Origin: Spinellus fusiger
Lineage: Eukaryota; Mucoromycota; Mucoromycetes; Mucorales; Phycomycetaceae
Assembly: GCA_025094145.1 (NCBI GenBank)
Contig: JALLLS010000073.1
Location: 112,869 to 176,868, forward strand
Direction: 5' to 3'
DNA: 64,000 nucleotides
This document shows positions 9,346-48,425 of this stretch, piece after piece; position 1 is the first letter of the stretch; every line of letters begins with the position of its first letter. The notes beneath the pieces were generated by a model that ran no database searches, was not told the DNA's origin, and worked only from the letters and a program-made list of their open reading frames with translations. Made by a program: the position numbers and the translations under genes.

Positions 9346-10671
9346 TACACACCAGAAGATTTTTCTCGCCTTTAAGCGATGATATCTCCTTCCTCTTACG
9401 TCCAAAAACATTTTGCCCTTTTATGGAACTGTATTTAAAACTAAAAAGTTTGTAAGTATCTGTACACACCAGGATATTTTTCTGGCCTTTAATAAGTGAC
9501 ACAATCATCCCTTTACGTCCATCCCGAATTTTGCCCTTACATGGAACTGTGTTTAAAATCAAAAGGTCTGCGGATATCCAAATATTTGTTTCCTTTTGTG
9601 GATACCTCAATATCAAATTGTATTATCAATGGAATATATTGTTTACGAATAATATTGTTGATTGTAATAGTATAGCTAATACTATATTATGACTATAGCC
9701 ACTGCATAAGTGCATTCCCTCATAGCAATAGAATCTATACCCTAAAAGCCTTGTGATTTATTCTTGGGAGATAGATAAATATGCTTAGGAGTATAATCTA
9801 GACATTATTGACCTTGTAGAAGACCACCTAAGACTGACTTGAGAGCCTCTGCTTAATAACAATACAATGAGTGTCTTGTGGAATACATTGAGCTCAAGTC
9901 CAGATGAAGACACTCCTTACCTTTTTATTACTAGAATAGTCCTTGGTAGTGTCTATTACTTCCTTCTATTGTTTCTCTTTGTCAATAATAGCACATTACC
10001 TTGCTCAGATATGCTTATTTTGAACAGTATTTGGGTGAAGTTGTATGTGCAGTGTGGAAAATAACAAGAGGAGGAGAATATCAAAACAAATAATAATGTT
10101 TCATCTATTATTCTGGTAATCTACTACACTATAGCCTCCACTCATAAAATTCACAAGTCAAACAATTCACACTCTATTTGCCTTGGACCTAAAAGACAGT
10201 ATTAGAAACAATACTTAGTTATCATTAAGTACTATTGTTAATACCAGTTACAATAACATAGTTGTTAAAGTGATTATTAATATTGAGTCAATGAATGGCT
10301 ATACTTCTCTTAATATAAGTAGGTTTGGTTCTATTTTTTAGACAATGACCACCAGAGTTAATTCAGTCCTATAATAAATCTTTCTTAAGCAATGTCATAC
10401 TGCAAATACTATGGGCTTAAGGATAACATATTATGTTAAACAATAAATCCAGTGTCTGAATTTTAGTATCGGCTTTATTTCTTCCTTTTATATTCAACTT
10501 TATAGCGTTTAATTGCAGTCGATAGTTATTGCTAGAATAGGCAAGTAAAGTTCGAAATAGACCATTTAAATAGCGAAAAAGCCTTCTCAAACACATTAGC
10601 CAATCATAATAATATTGTAATTTTATTCTCAGGATATTTCCTTATATATTCCAAAAATTTCCTGGTGTGTA
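9346..10671 (+). mobile_element. Shortened copy of the 46-kb TIR element
   Basis: This segment matches the left third of the element at 46010-48425. It carries the same terminal inverted repeat: TACACACCAGG on the left at 9463 and CCTGGTGTGTA on the right at 10661-10671. The left terminus is present twice, at 9346-9462 and again from 9463, as a diverged tandem copy of about 117 bases. After the region corresponding to about 46750 the sequence jumps to the right terminus, so the internal coding part is missing. A 65-codon open frame at 9867-10064 is shared with the other copy. TA dinucleotides border both ends, which could be a TA target duplication or part of the repeat. It is best read as a dead, internally deleted derivative. 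Confidence 0.65.
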
Positions 10672-45228: not shown

Positions 45229-46009
45229 AAAAAGAAGAGATTTCCCTGTTCTCTCTATTTCAATGTTCGTCTATTGTAATGTTTCAATGCTTTATTGTAG
45301 AATACCCTATAGCTCCTTCTTCATTCCCAGTAGGCATTCCCAATAGGCATTCCCAATAGGCATTGACTTATTGCCCTGAATACCTCTCTTTTTATTTTTA
45401 TTTTCATTATCTTGCTATTATAGTGCCTATGCCTTTCTATCAAAAATATATACCAATTTACACAATCAATAGCATGGTTATCTACAGTAATGTGTGTTCA
45501 ATGAACACTTGTCTTGTTTTGTCTTATTCTTACTGCTGTGGTAATAGATAGAATGAACCCCTTCTACATCTCTAAAACAATGAAGAGTGTATTGAGTTCA
45601 TACCCACTTTTTCATCGAGTCATTGGAGATGGAAACAGGGACACACTAGTCATGTTTTCCTTTTCAAAGCTCTCTTGACACTTTCTAAAGCATTCCCTCA
45701 GGAGTCCTTTGGATCTCTTTTGGAATTAGAAAACATCCCCCTTTTCCCTTTGCTTATTTTCCCGCTCTTGGTCTAAGGATTCTAAGAATTCAAACTCATA
45801 GACTGTGTGGCTCTTTCTCCCCTTTTCCCCCCTTCAAATGCTGCTATTGAAATGATGTGCAGTCTGTGGATTCCACTTGGTGTTTCCATAGTATAGACTG
45901 TGGATTCGCATTTGCATTTCACACTTCAAACACTTATGCCATACAAACCCTTTGTTTATTTAAAACGATGATCTCTGTGGTGGCTGGTGTATTGACGAGG
46001 GAGGTAGTC
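45229..46009. other. Intergenic
   Basis: 3' flank of the GPI protein gene up to the left terminus of the TIR element. No gene is seen. Short direct repeats of AGGCATTCCCAAT occur at about 45332-45362. Confidence 0.5.
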
Positions 46010-48425
46010 TACACACCAGGAGATTTTCTGGCTTTTAACCAGATACACGCTATCTCCTTTACGTAAAAAAATATTCTGCCTTTTATGGGGCTGTGTTTAA
46101 AATCAAAGGTTTGCAAGTATCTAAATCTTTCTTTCCTTTTGTGGATACCTCAATATCAAATTGTATTATCAATAAAATATATTGTTTATGAATAAAATTG
46201 TTTATTGTAATACTGTAGCTAATAACATACTATTACTATAGCTACTGCTGCTCTAGGCGTATTCCTTCATAGCAATAGAACCCACAACCTAAAGGCCTTG
46301 TGCTTTATTCTTGGGAGATAGATAACTATGTTCAGGAGTATACCCTAGAGACTCTAGATAGTATAGAAGACCACCTAAGACTGACTTGAAAGGAGTCTTT
46401 ACTTGCCTAATAACAATACAATGAGTGTCTTGTGGAATACAATGAGCTCAAGCCCAGATGAAGACGCTGCTTACCTTTTTATCTCAAGAATAGTCCTTGG
46501 TAGTGTCTATCACTTCCTTCTATTGTTTCTCTTTGTTAATAATGGCACATTACCTTGCTCAGTTATGCTCATATTGAGGAGTACTTGATTGTTATACTGT
46601 GGGCTTAAGGATAGCACATGTTAAACAATAAATTCAGTGATTGAGTTGTAATGTCAGGTTTGCTTCTTCCTTTTATCCAACTTTCAGTGTTTAATTACAC
46701 AGTCCATAGTCAATGCCAAGACAGACAGACAGTGAAAATGTTCTTTTCAAATACATTGACCAACCAAAGAAATAGTGTGACTTTATTGTTCATATATTTC
46801 TTTTTTTTTACTATGAATTTGTCTAATTTGCTGTTCTCAAGCAATAGCTATGGCTTTTATAGAACATTCAAGAAGACTGGGAAGGGTAACTGTCCTGTCC
46901 TATAGTGTGTATACTCTTGATCATGTATTTCAAGTCCATAGAATTCCAGAAAGTGATTTTATTGTAAAAGAAGAAAAAAGGTTTCTCTCTTCCCTTGAAA
47001 CATACATAGGACAAGAAGAAGGAATCCATCTCTGAACTTACTGAGATGTTATTACCGTATAACTTTGATTCTTATAGCTTAAAAAGATATGTATATAAGT
47101 AGCCTCAAGATATATACTATTTAACTTTGTAAAAATATATCCTTTATTCTGTAATAAAGGGCACTGCAGTTATCAACAAGACGACTAAAGAGATGAATTT
47201 GTAGTAGTTTGGTCTTTAGCAGGGACAACGAAATGGAGTATTAGTAAAAAGGCTAGTCTAGGGAAACCAAAGAGGGTACATGAACAGGAACACAACACAC
47301 GATTTGATCACAACGGGTAACTAGGCAACTGTTTTTTAAGCAATTCTATTTCTTTTTTTAAATGTTGTTGTAGTCTGCATTACTTTGGTAGTTCTGATTA
47401 AGCAAATGAGTTGTGAAAATTCGTCTTGTTCTCTTCTGCTTGGATATTAATACCTGCTAATTGCACTGTCTGTTGTTTTTCATAACTTCTACCCTCTTTA
47501 ACTTGTTTGCCTTTGTCTGGCATATAAACCAACAGTTGTGATCTGGTGAGTGTTTGTGTATGTTTATTATGTCTGACATGTTAGTCAGTTTCTATTTTAT
47601 ATTCTTTTATTTTAATAAACCCAGTGAATCCGTTACAAAGACAAAGGCAGGAAGTAGGTGCCAGTGCAAGGGTAATACGACATACATAGAGAGTACATTA
47701 ATACATCTCGAACTAACTATTTTTACTATTATTTTATTAGTGAAAAGGAGTATTAGCACCTAAAAAGATTGGAGTATGATCCTACCAATCTGCCAGTCGT
47801 TGCTTATGACAGGAATAAAGGTAAAAGATGCTGTCAAGTTTAAAGGTCATCGTGTTAGTTTGACAAAAAATTTATATCAATCATTGAAAAAAGAGACAAA
47901 AGGATGGAGATCTTCTTGTAGTTGATGTTGATAAGTTCCGAACATCAAAGATGAACATGATTGACCTCTCACTCAATATGAAAAGCTCTTCTAACAGTTA
48001 TTTTCTTTTCTTCTTTTGTTCTCAAGATCTGCCACACTTGTAGCACACATAGCCTCACCGAAATATTAGTAAATTTCAACAGTATCCACGCTTGCCAAAG
48101 TTGCGGAATTGTTTGGAACAGAGATGTGAATGCATCAAAGAATATCTATACAATTTCAGAAGAGGCTTTGAATGGTCGCCACCGACCAGTTCCTTTCTGT
48201 CGAGAAGCATAGATACTCTTTGATGCATTCATATTATATATCGCCACATCGAAAGTGGTTTCCTCTGGGATTCAGATATTTACAGGTAAATCTACATAAT
48301 AATCTTTATTTAAGAACTAACATGAATATATTTCACTTTTTTTGCTCCTTTTCAAATTTATATCATTTCTAAACAATTGTATTTCGACTATTTCCTTTTA
48401 TATCCTAAAGACCTCCTGGTGTGTA
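46010..48425 (+). mobile_element. 2.4-kb TIR element carrying a Fanzor/TnpB-like relic
   Basis: The element is bounded by an inverted 13-mer, TACACACCAGGAG at 46010-46022 and CTCCTGGTGTGTA at 48413-48425. Outer TA dinucleotides could be the target duplication. The left 750 or so bases align with the shortened copy at 9463-10600, including a 60-codon frame at 46403-46588 that is about 90% identical. The right end (ATTTCCTT-TATAT-CC, then CTGGTGTGTA) aligns with the right end of that copy. The region from about 47160 to 48212 carries decayed TnpB/Fanzor-like coding sequence. No transposase of another class is seen inside, so the mobilising enzyme is unknown. Confidence 0.7.
47160..48212 (+). 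pseudogene. Fanzor (eukaryotic TnpB homologue)-like, decayed
   Basis: Fanzors are eukaryotic homologues of TnpB, and characterised members are RNA-guided nucleases. The C-terminal part is clear: a frame from 48027 reads ICHTCSTHSL, then ACQSCGIVWNRDVNASKNIY and a tail GRHRPVPFCREA ending at TAG 48212. This gives two CxxC pairs (48030-48041 and 48093-48104) and the final RuvC-type Asp in WNRDVNA. Upstream, in another frame, GDLLVVDVDKFRTSK (about 47905-47951) matches the 'DEFRTS' block. Before that, in a third frame, are NLPVVAYD and DAVKFKGHRVSLTKNLYQ. A possible start of the domain lies near 47190 (FVVVWSLAGTTKWS). At least two frame breaks (about 47900 and 48000-48027) and stops interrupt it; one could be a short intron. 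It is called a pseudogene; the 5' limit is uncertain. Confidence 0.7.

Follow-up and report, generated by a model that had tools for sequence, protein, structure and literature searches.

The genome of Spinellus fusiger contains a large family of DNA transposons, which is non-autonomous as far as its copies have been read, and whose members can carry the two terminal exons of a Fanzor gene. Fanzors are the eukaryotic relatives of CRISPR nucleases. One copy of this family is located in the window, the stretch of 64,000 nucleotides of contig JALLLS010000073.1 that was analysed here (Table 1). A sequence-only reading had interpreted it as a Fanzor/TnpB-like relic within an element bounded by terminal inverted repeats (TIRs), and this interpretation is supported by the comparison of the copy with its relatives in the genome. 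The window copy is dead: a TAG stop codon interrupts the frame at 47754-47756, an indel near 47808-47811 shifts it (judged by eye against copy L033), the splice donor of the intron is lost, and the RuvC-II Glu is replaced by Lys.

Table 1. Features of the window that belong to the transposon family (positions are those of the window).
Feature	Position	Strand	Remarks
Whole element copy	46010..48425	+	2416 bp including the TA at each end; exact 13-bp TIRs; genome coordinates G000:C169:158878-161293
C just outside the left TA	46009..46009	+	TAM-like position; from end comparisons
Left terminal inverted repeat	46010..46022	+	TACACACCAGGAG, exact; first TA read as target duplication; 41 left ends compared
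Right terminal inverted repeat	48413..48425	-	reverse complement of TACACACCAGGAG, exact; 63 right ends of the same type compared
Fanzor exon preceding the zinc finger (exon 1)	47742..47950	+	..LPVVAY.., DKFRTSK; upstream splice site uncertain
Spliceosomal intron, 76 nt	47951..48026	+	donor lost here (AT); CTAAC at 47991; acceptor AG
Last Fanzor exon (exon 2)	48027..48212	+	C4 zinc ribbon; WNRDVNASKN including the RuvC-III Asp; stop codon
Strong hairpin	48123..48235	+	spans the RDVNASKN codons and the stop; z -5.8
Two small stem-loops just 3' of the stop	48243..48286	+	weak candidate omegaRNA remnant
Second family member, ghost-like	9463..10671	+	without Fanzor exons

Element copies and their ends

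The 13-base inverted terminal repeat that had been noticed in the window copy is exact at both of its ends, and the 38.1-Mb genome contains the same 13-mer 507 + 509 times, which amounts to 1,016 exact ends, versus 1 + 0 occurrences of a control 13-mer that was reversed but not complemented. A DNA search of the genome with the window copy, in which the best 40 of 1682 candidates were scored, returned other copies that are 85-99% identical to it. The relic interpretation hinged on the existence of further copies sharing both the coding region and the termini, and many of these were found. The end-to-end copies, 37 in number with some of them counted twice, are between 168 bp and 3.0 kb long, with lengths mostly of about 0.9, 1.2, 1.4 and 2.2-3.0 kb. 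For the comparisons described below, copies were gathered because of their TIR (8), a match to PF07282 (30), their resemblance to the window (30) or their location (4). The PF07282-gathered copies are biased towards an open last exon; counts for this exon are therefore not derived from an unbiased sample. After the removal of duplicates, 64 sequences were aligned, and the 60 sequences with more than 300 letters were used for the analysis.

Some arrangements of the family deserve a separate description. The 168-bp mini-element (L069, 44-211) consists of two right ends placed face to face. A 4.1-kb pair of ends in L069 was considered as an autonomous element and rejected, since the enclosed frames look like a host peptidase gene. 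The second family member in the window has a right half of a different type (type-B) and may be nested, as the sequence on its left also looks family-like by eye. Pairs of inverted matches with equal scores are common on single contigs of G000 (C172, C150, C167, C117 and others; e.g., C172:96007-, 97923+, 109277- and 111193+), which suggests fold-back duplications in the genome or in the assembly.

Target duplication and element class

The target duplication could be read from one of the 37 elements, the nested copy L040, whose joined flanks can be aligned across the junction in L048 with no gap, which thus represents an empty site. The joined flanks of L040 also align in L035, L068 and the window copy, and these relatives have CA in place of the TA of the joined flanks. 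TA is present at most of the compared ends, and a few have TG, CA or another dinucleotide. A 2-bp duplication together with TIRs fits the Tc1/mariner elements, and the class of the host element, which had been left open in the sequence-only reading, can be narrowed to a TA-duplicating, Tc1/mariner-like element. No transposase tied to the TACACACC ends was found at eight DDE_3 loci and in two 401-base pieces, taken from 174 DDE_3 matches in the genome (150 of 1544 candidates scored). Four of the eight loci end in TACACCTTTTT, and the two 401-base pieces have no TACACCTTTTT right end. At three of the eight loci, DDE_3 lies inside a family copy, namely after element base 61 in L078, after base 115 in L074 and between bases 174 and 260 in L073. 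The transposases in L074 and L078 have ends of their own, and none were recognised in L073; the differing sites and the own ends suggest that the transposases of L074 and L078 are parts of nested Tc1/mariner elements, and that of L073 may be nested too. The three genes are situated at different places in the left parts of the copies, as if these were insertion hot spots. Abundant Tc1/mariner-like DDE_3 elements with the ends TA-CACCTTTTT were observed in L074, L075, L078 and L080.

Asymmetry of the flanking base

A C directly outside the TA was counted at 35 of 41 left ends versus 21 of 63 right ends of the Fanzor-bearing type (p 1.3e-7), and C is also found at three of the four type-B right ends. 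The asymmetry was likewise seen genome-wide with exact end patterns, where C precedes the TA at 186 of 249 left ends (74.7%) versus 121 of 298 right ends (40.6%; p 9e-16); only copies lacking C ten bases out entered this count, and a pattern that also catches type-B right ends was left out of it. The background frequency of C before TA in the window is 19.6%. The relatives compared at the L040 site already carry C before the site, which means that in this case the C belongs to the target.

There is about an even chance that the C at the left flank reflects a plain integration preference of the transposase, in which the Fanzor has no role. C is enriched at the right ends as well when compared with the background, and also at the type-B right ends, so that a general C-TA preference exists, and a C that was already present before the L040 site is what any target preference would produce. 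Matching TIRs should, however, result in an equal preference at both ends, which is not what the genome-wide counts show; asymmetric binding is conceivable, given that left and right ends have different inner sequences. A more tentative interpretation, which we regard as possible and clearly the less likely one, is that the excess of C at left ends is a fossil trace of the TAM (C-TA) of a Fanzor and that the copies persist via RNA-guided cutting of empty sites.

The Fanzor exons and their intron

All C-terminal motifs that had been listed for the window copy are present in the proposed order, i.e., DKFRTSK (47930-47950), the two pairs ICHTC and CQSC, and WNRDVNASKN; however, DKFRTSK does not directly adjoin the zinc finger; the two lie in different frames, with the 76-nt intron between them. 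The open reading frame at 47982-48209 matches PF07282 with an E-value of 1.2e-8, but only from profile position 29. A genome search with PF07282 gave 457 first-look candidates, of which 150 were scored; apart from three, the matches listed all exceed the cut-off, two of them solely with the help of neighbours in frame. The exon before it gave 471 candidates, and each of the 150 that were scored matches with an E-value of 3.1e-29 or better. Because of these matches across the genome, chance can be excluded.

The intron donor is GT in 44 of the 53 copies with letters at this position (AT in four, CT in four and GG in one; seven more are gapped), and the acceptor is AG in 59 of 59 copies with letters. 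Ten of the 60 copies have both exons open together with GT-AG, and all ten match PF07282 after splicing, with a best E-value of 3.9e-13. In L033, removal of the intron extends the match from positions 29-60 to positions 9-60 of 60. The sequence-only reading depended on a profile match outside the zinc-finger segment, which is now provided by the first of the ten spliced copies, matching PF07282 from position 9, and by the exon before the finger, which has relatives among Mucorales proteins. A Spinellus fusiger protein continues straight across the position of the same intron. The conservation of GT and AG, the PF07282 matches of the spliced copies and this protein thus identify the 76 nt as a spliceosomal intron between the RuvC-II and the zinc-finger motifs. 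Behind the zinc ribbon, of which the window copy retains all four Cys, the R of the RuvC-III RD is present in 60 of 60 copies and the D in 59 of 60.

One further upstream exon is kept by L023 (EEMVNILINSGIKYNKYRRKKTKQN; P0005, E 2e-19). It was recognised only in this copy among the 85 sequences searched, with traces in L038 and L072, and a different stretch of about 0.7 kb occupies its place in 59 of the 85. The upstream exon and its traces imply that the family descends from a longer Fanzor gene. A profile search of the genome with PF01385 gave no match, NF040570 matched only with its positions 348-386 (best 106 of 239 candidates scored), and neither RuvC-I nor the N-terminal half was detected in the genome or seen in the copies examined. 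RuvC-I is where the DPG motif, a further mark of Fanzors versus canonical TnpB, would be located. The six frames of the long copy L053 yielded only PF07282, below the cut-off, and no transposase, and no coding signal upstream of exon 1 was conspicuous in the codon-phase divergence, which was judged by eye and is not a formal test.

Decay and selection

Exon 1 is broken or missing in 44 of 60 copies, and 28 of 58 have Tyr in place of the second zinc Cys. The RuvC-II Glu position is E in 34 and K in 19 of the 53 copies with letters there. The shared losses of Cys to Tyr and of Glu to Lys probably mean that broken versions of the element were amplified. Using an N/S expectation derived from the mutation spectrum of the intron and the flanks, exon-1 variants common to six or more copies show an N/S of 0.44 of the expectation, compared with 1.40 for variants in two to five copies and 1.15 for single-copy variants (shared versus rarer variants, Fisher p 0.006, no tree used). 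In exon 2, the corresponding contrast is absent (p 0.42, likewise without a tree). Old exon-1 variants thus look constrained and recent ones neutral; the source gene was probably functional early on, and the individual copies drift. In the family alignment, CpA is not raised, as it would be in a RIP-like context, and C-to-T changes affect 232 of 1618 CpG positions (14%) versus 7-8% elsewhere (alignment of window positions 47609-48425), hinting at cytosine methylation of the repeats.

The ten copies with both exons open and the constrained-looking old exon-1 variants might be taken as signs that the C-terminal fragment is no relic but a working short protein, either a zinc-ribbon peptide or a dominant negative. 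This is improbable, given that the rarer variants are neutral, that the second zinc Cys is lost in nearly half of the copies and exon 1 in most of them is broken or missing, and that the upstream exon can be recognised in L023 only, with traces in two other copies. The fragment is best regarded as the remainder of a longer Fanzor gene.

Assignment to Fanzor1

Judged from their sequences, the closest named relatives are Mucorales proteins, those near the top coming from Spinellus, Cokeromyces, Backusella, Phycomyces, Thamnidium, Mucor and Rhizopus; full-length relatives were not found among 121 and 3 candidates. According to PMC10711439, Fanzors are separated from canonical TnpB by a catalytic Glu that precedes the zinc finger by six residues. 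This Glu is invariant in 35 aligned relatives (35 of 96 aligned), and a Cys follows after six further residues in 32 of the 35. The family has the Glu spacing of Fanzors, with K in the window copy itself. For the predicted fold of the relative P0002, SpuFz1 and PpFz1 fill the six best rows, both in Foldseek and after re-alignment of its hits, at low TM-scores of 0.39-0.45 of the query. With Fanzor1 proteins as the closest structural relatives of this predicted fold, the gene would be assigned to Fanzor1 rather than to Fanzor2. An origin from a Fanzor2 or a TnpB of an IS607 or IS605 element is very unlikely, for although Fanzor2 L79 is found, together with LaTranC and Cas12m and without SpuFz1, among the sequence-only PDB matches up to E 1, and weak matches to TnpB profiles exist, Fanzor1 chains rank first among the structural matches, and TIRs and a TA duplication do not fit the transposons of IS607/IS605 recombinases, which are described in PMC3627910 as having neither TIRs nor duplications. 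Two TnpB-like genes on viral contigs were set aside, as by eye they have no Glu at this spacing, and the PHROGs and PADLOC matches were to C-termini of transposases and Cas12, from which nothing finer was gained.

The 3' region

In the window copy, the hairpin that spans the end of the coding region is far stronger than in shuffled sequences (Table 1). Covariation was not detected, as both-side pair changes and the covariation score were reached by 278 and 96 of 500 shuffles, respectively; for the share of paired cells (89.8 versus 89.4%), no more than 10 of 500 came as high. In 18 of 60 copies the hairpin has a perfectly or near-perfectly complementary 3' arm, and two other types of this arm are present in 12 and 30 copies. 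The sequence at 48209-48238 and its equivalents look as if template switching had repeatedly perfected a quasi-palindrome.

The two stem-loops 3' of the stop, predicted by alifold on the alignment, have 97% of their cells paired without a compensatory excess. Pair-preserving and pair-breaking changes amount to 54 and 18, in a structure that was chosen on the same alignment, and this bias was reached by 32 of 2000 random pair sets and, by change types, by 189 of 2000. Column shuffles, which are a weak control, gave z-scores of -11.3 for 48209-48320 and of -8.7 for 48209-48425, and no conserved fold was detected in the last 86 bases (z -1.2, column shuffles). A guide RNA produced from the right end and reading into the right flank as in Fanzor1 systems, which would be expected there by analogy with characterised Fanzors, is an unproven candidate. 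An Rfam match to MIR5200 (35.8 bits versus a gathering score of 70) was not taken up.

Comparison with known systems

The accounts in PMC3627910, PMC10432273 and PMC11423790 already describe Fanzor1 genes within elements that duplicate TA, as well as non-coding ghosts and Fanzors of Mucorales. The element SPu-1 of Spizellomyces punctatus resembles the family in its Fanzor1 C-terminus, its TIRs and TA duplication, its many gene-less copies (ghosts) and the conserved nucleotides outside its left end, as portrayed in the sections on it in PMC10432273 and PMC3627910. It is described there with an intact ORF of 633 amino acids in around 2.1 kb and with repeats of 30-33 bp, whereas no intact gene was seen in the family studied here, its gene is split and its repeats have 13 bp. 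In SPu-1, according to PMC10432273, a conserved CA outside the left end, which is also present in the ghosts, forms the TAM CATA together with the TA; PMC11423790 gives the motifs of SpuFz1 and GtFz1 in the other order. The family studied here has C rather than CA before the TA, C is raised at the right ends too, and its guide RNA is only a candidate. The flanks resemble those of SPu-1 closely, although asymmetric ends of a transposase would have the same effect.

The PUl-4 elements, in which Fanzor1 is found in Tc1/mariner elements, share the TA duplication and a Fanzor without a transposase; in the description given by PMC3627910, their TIRs are identical to those of confirmed Mariners, whereas the search in this genome revealed no partner of this kind. 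PpFz1 of Parasitella parasitica is a full-length protein with a reported TAM of ATN (PMC11423790). The ROr, PBl and MCi families likewise represent Fanzor1 in transposons of Rhizopus, Phycomyces and Mucor (PMC3627910); those in section 12 of that paper have duplications of 9 bp, 11-12 bp or 6 bp, unlike the TA here. The family is set apart from the section-12 families by description and may equal another PBl, ROr or MCi family. No description of it was recognised in the literature searched, the sequences of the named families lying outside that scope.

Origin and meaning of the family

The family probably originated, and we hold the explanation as a whole to be quite well founded, from an element with a Fanzor1 gene that contained an intron, the window copy being one of its dead descendants. 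A Tc1/mariner-type transposase encoded elsewhere would have moved the copies in trans via their ends. While the source gene worked, Fanzor1 and a guide from the right end might have cut empty sites adjoining a C-TA motif, which would have favoured the retention or the re-copying of the element; after the loss of the source gene, the copies would have decayed.

A Fanzor1 gene with an intron that splits the conserved C-terminal motif in two is thereby documented for a Mucorales-like fungus, and a plain zinc-ribbon scan detects only a fragment of such a gene. If the left-biased C is indeed the footprint of a TAM, the genome would hold population-scale evidence of a eukaryotic RNA-guided nuclease shaping transposon survival, and the hundreds of copies, whether or not they carry Fanzor exons, would have persisted because of such cutting. 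The family is informative on why Fanzors ride on transposons: its ends number in the hundreds, its two ends differ in structure, and sister copies lacking the Fanzor exist, which allows a test, on sequences alone, of whether retention needed a TAM-like flank.
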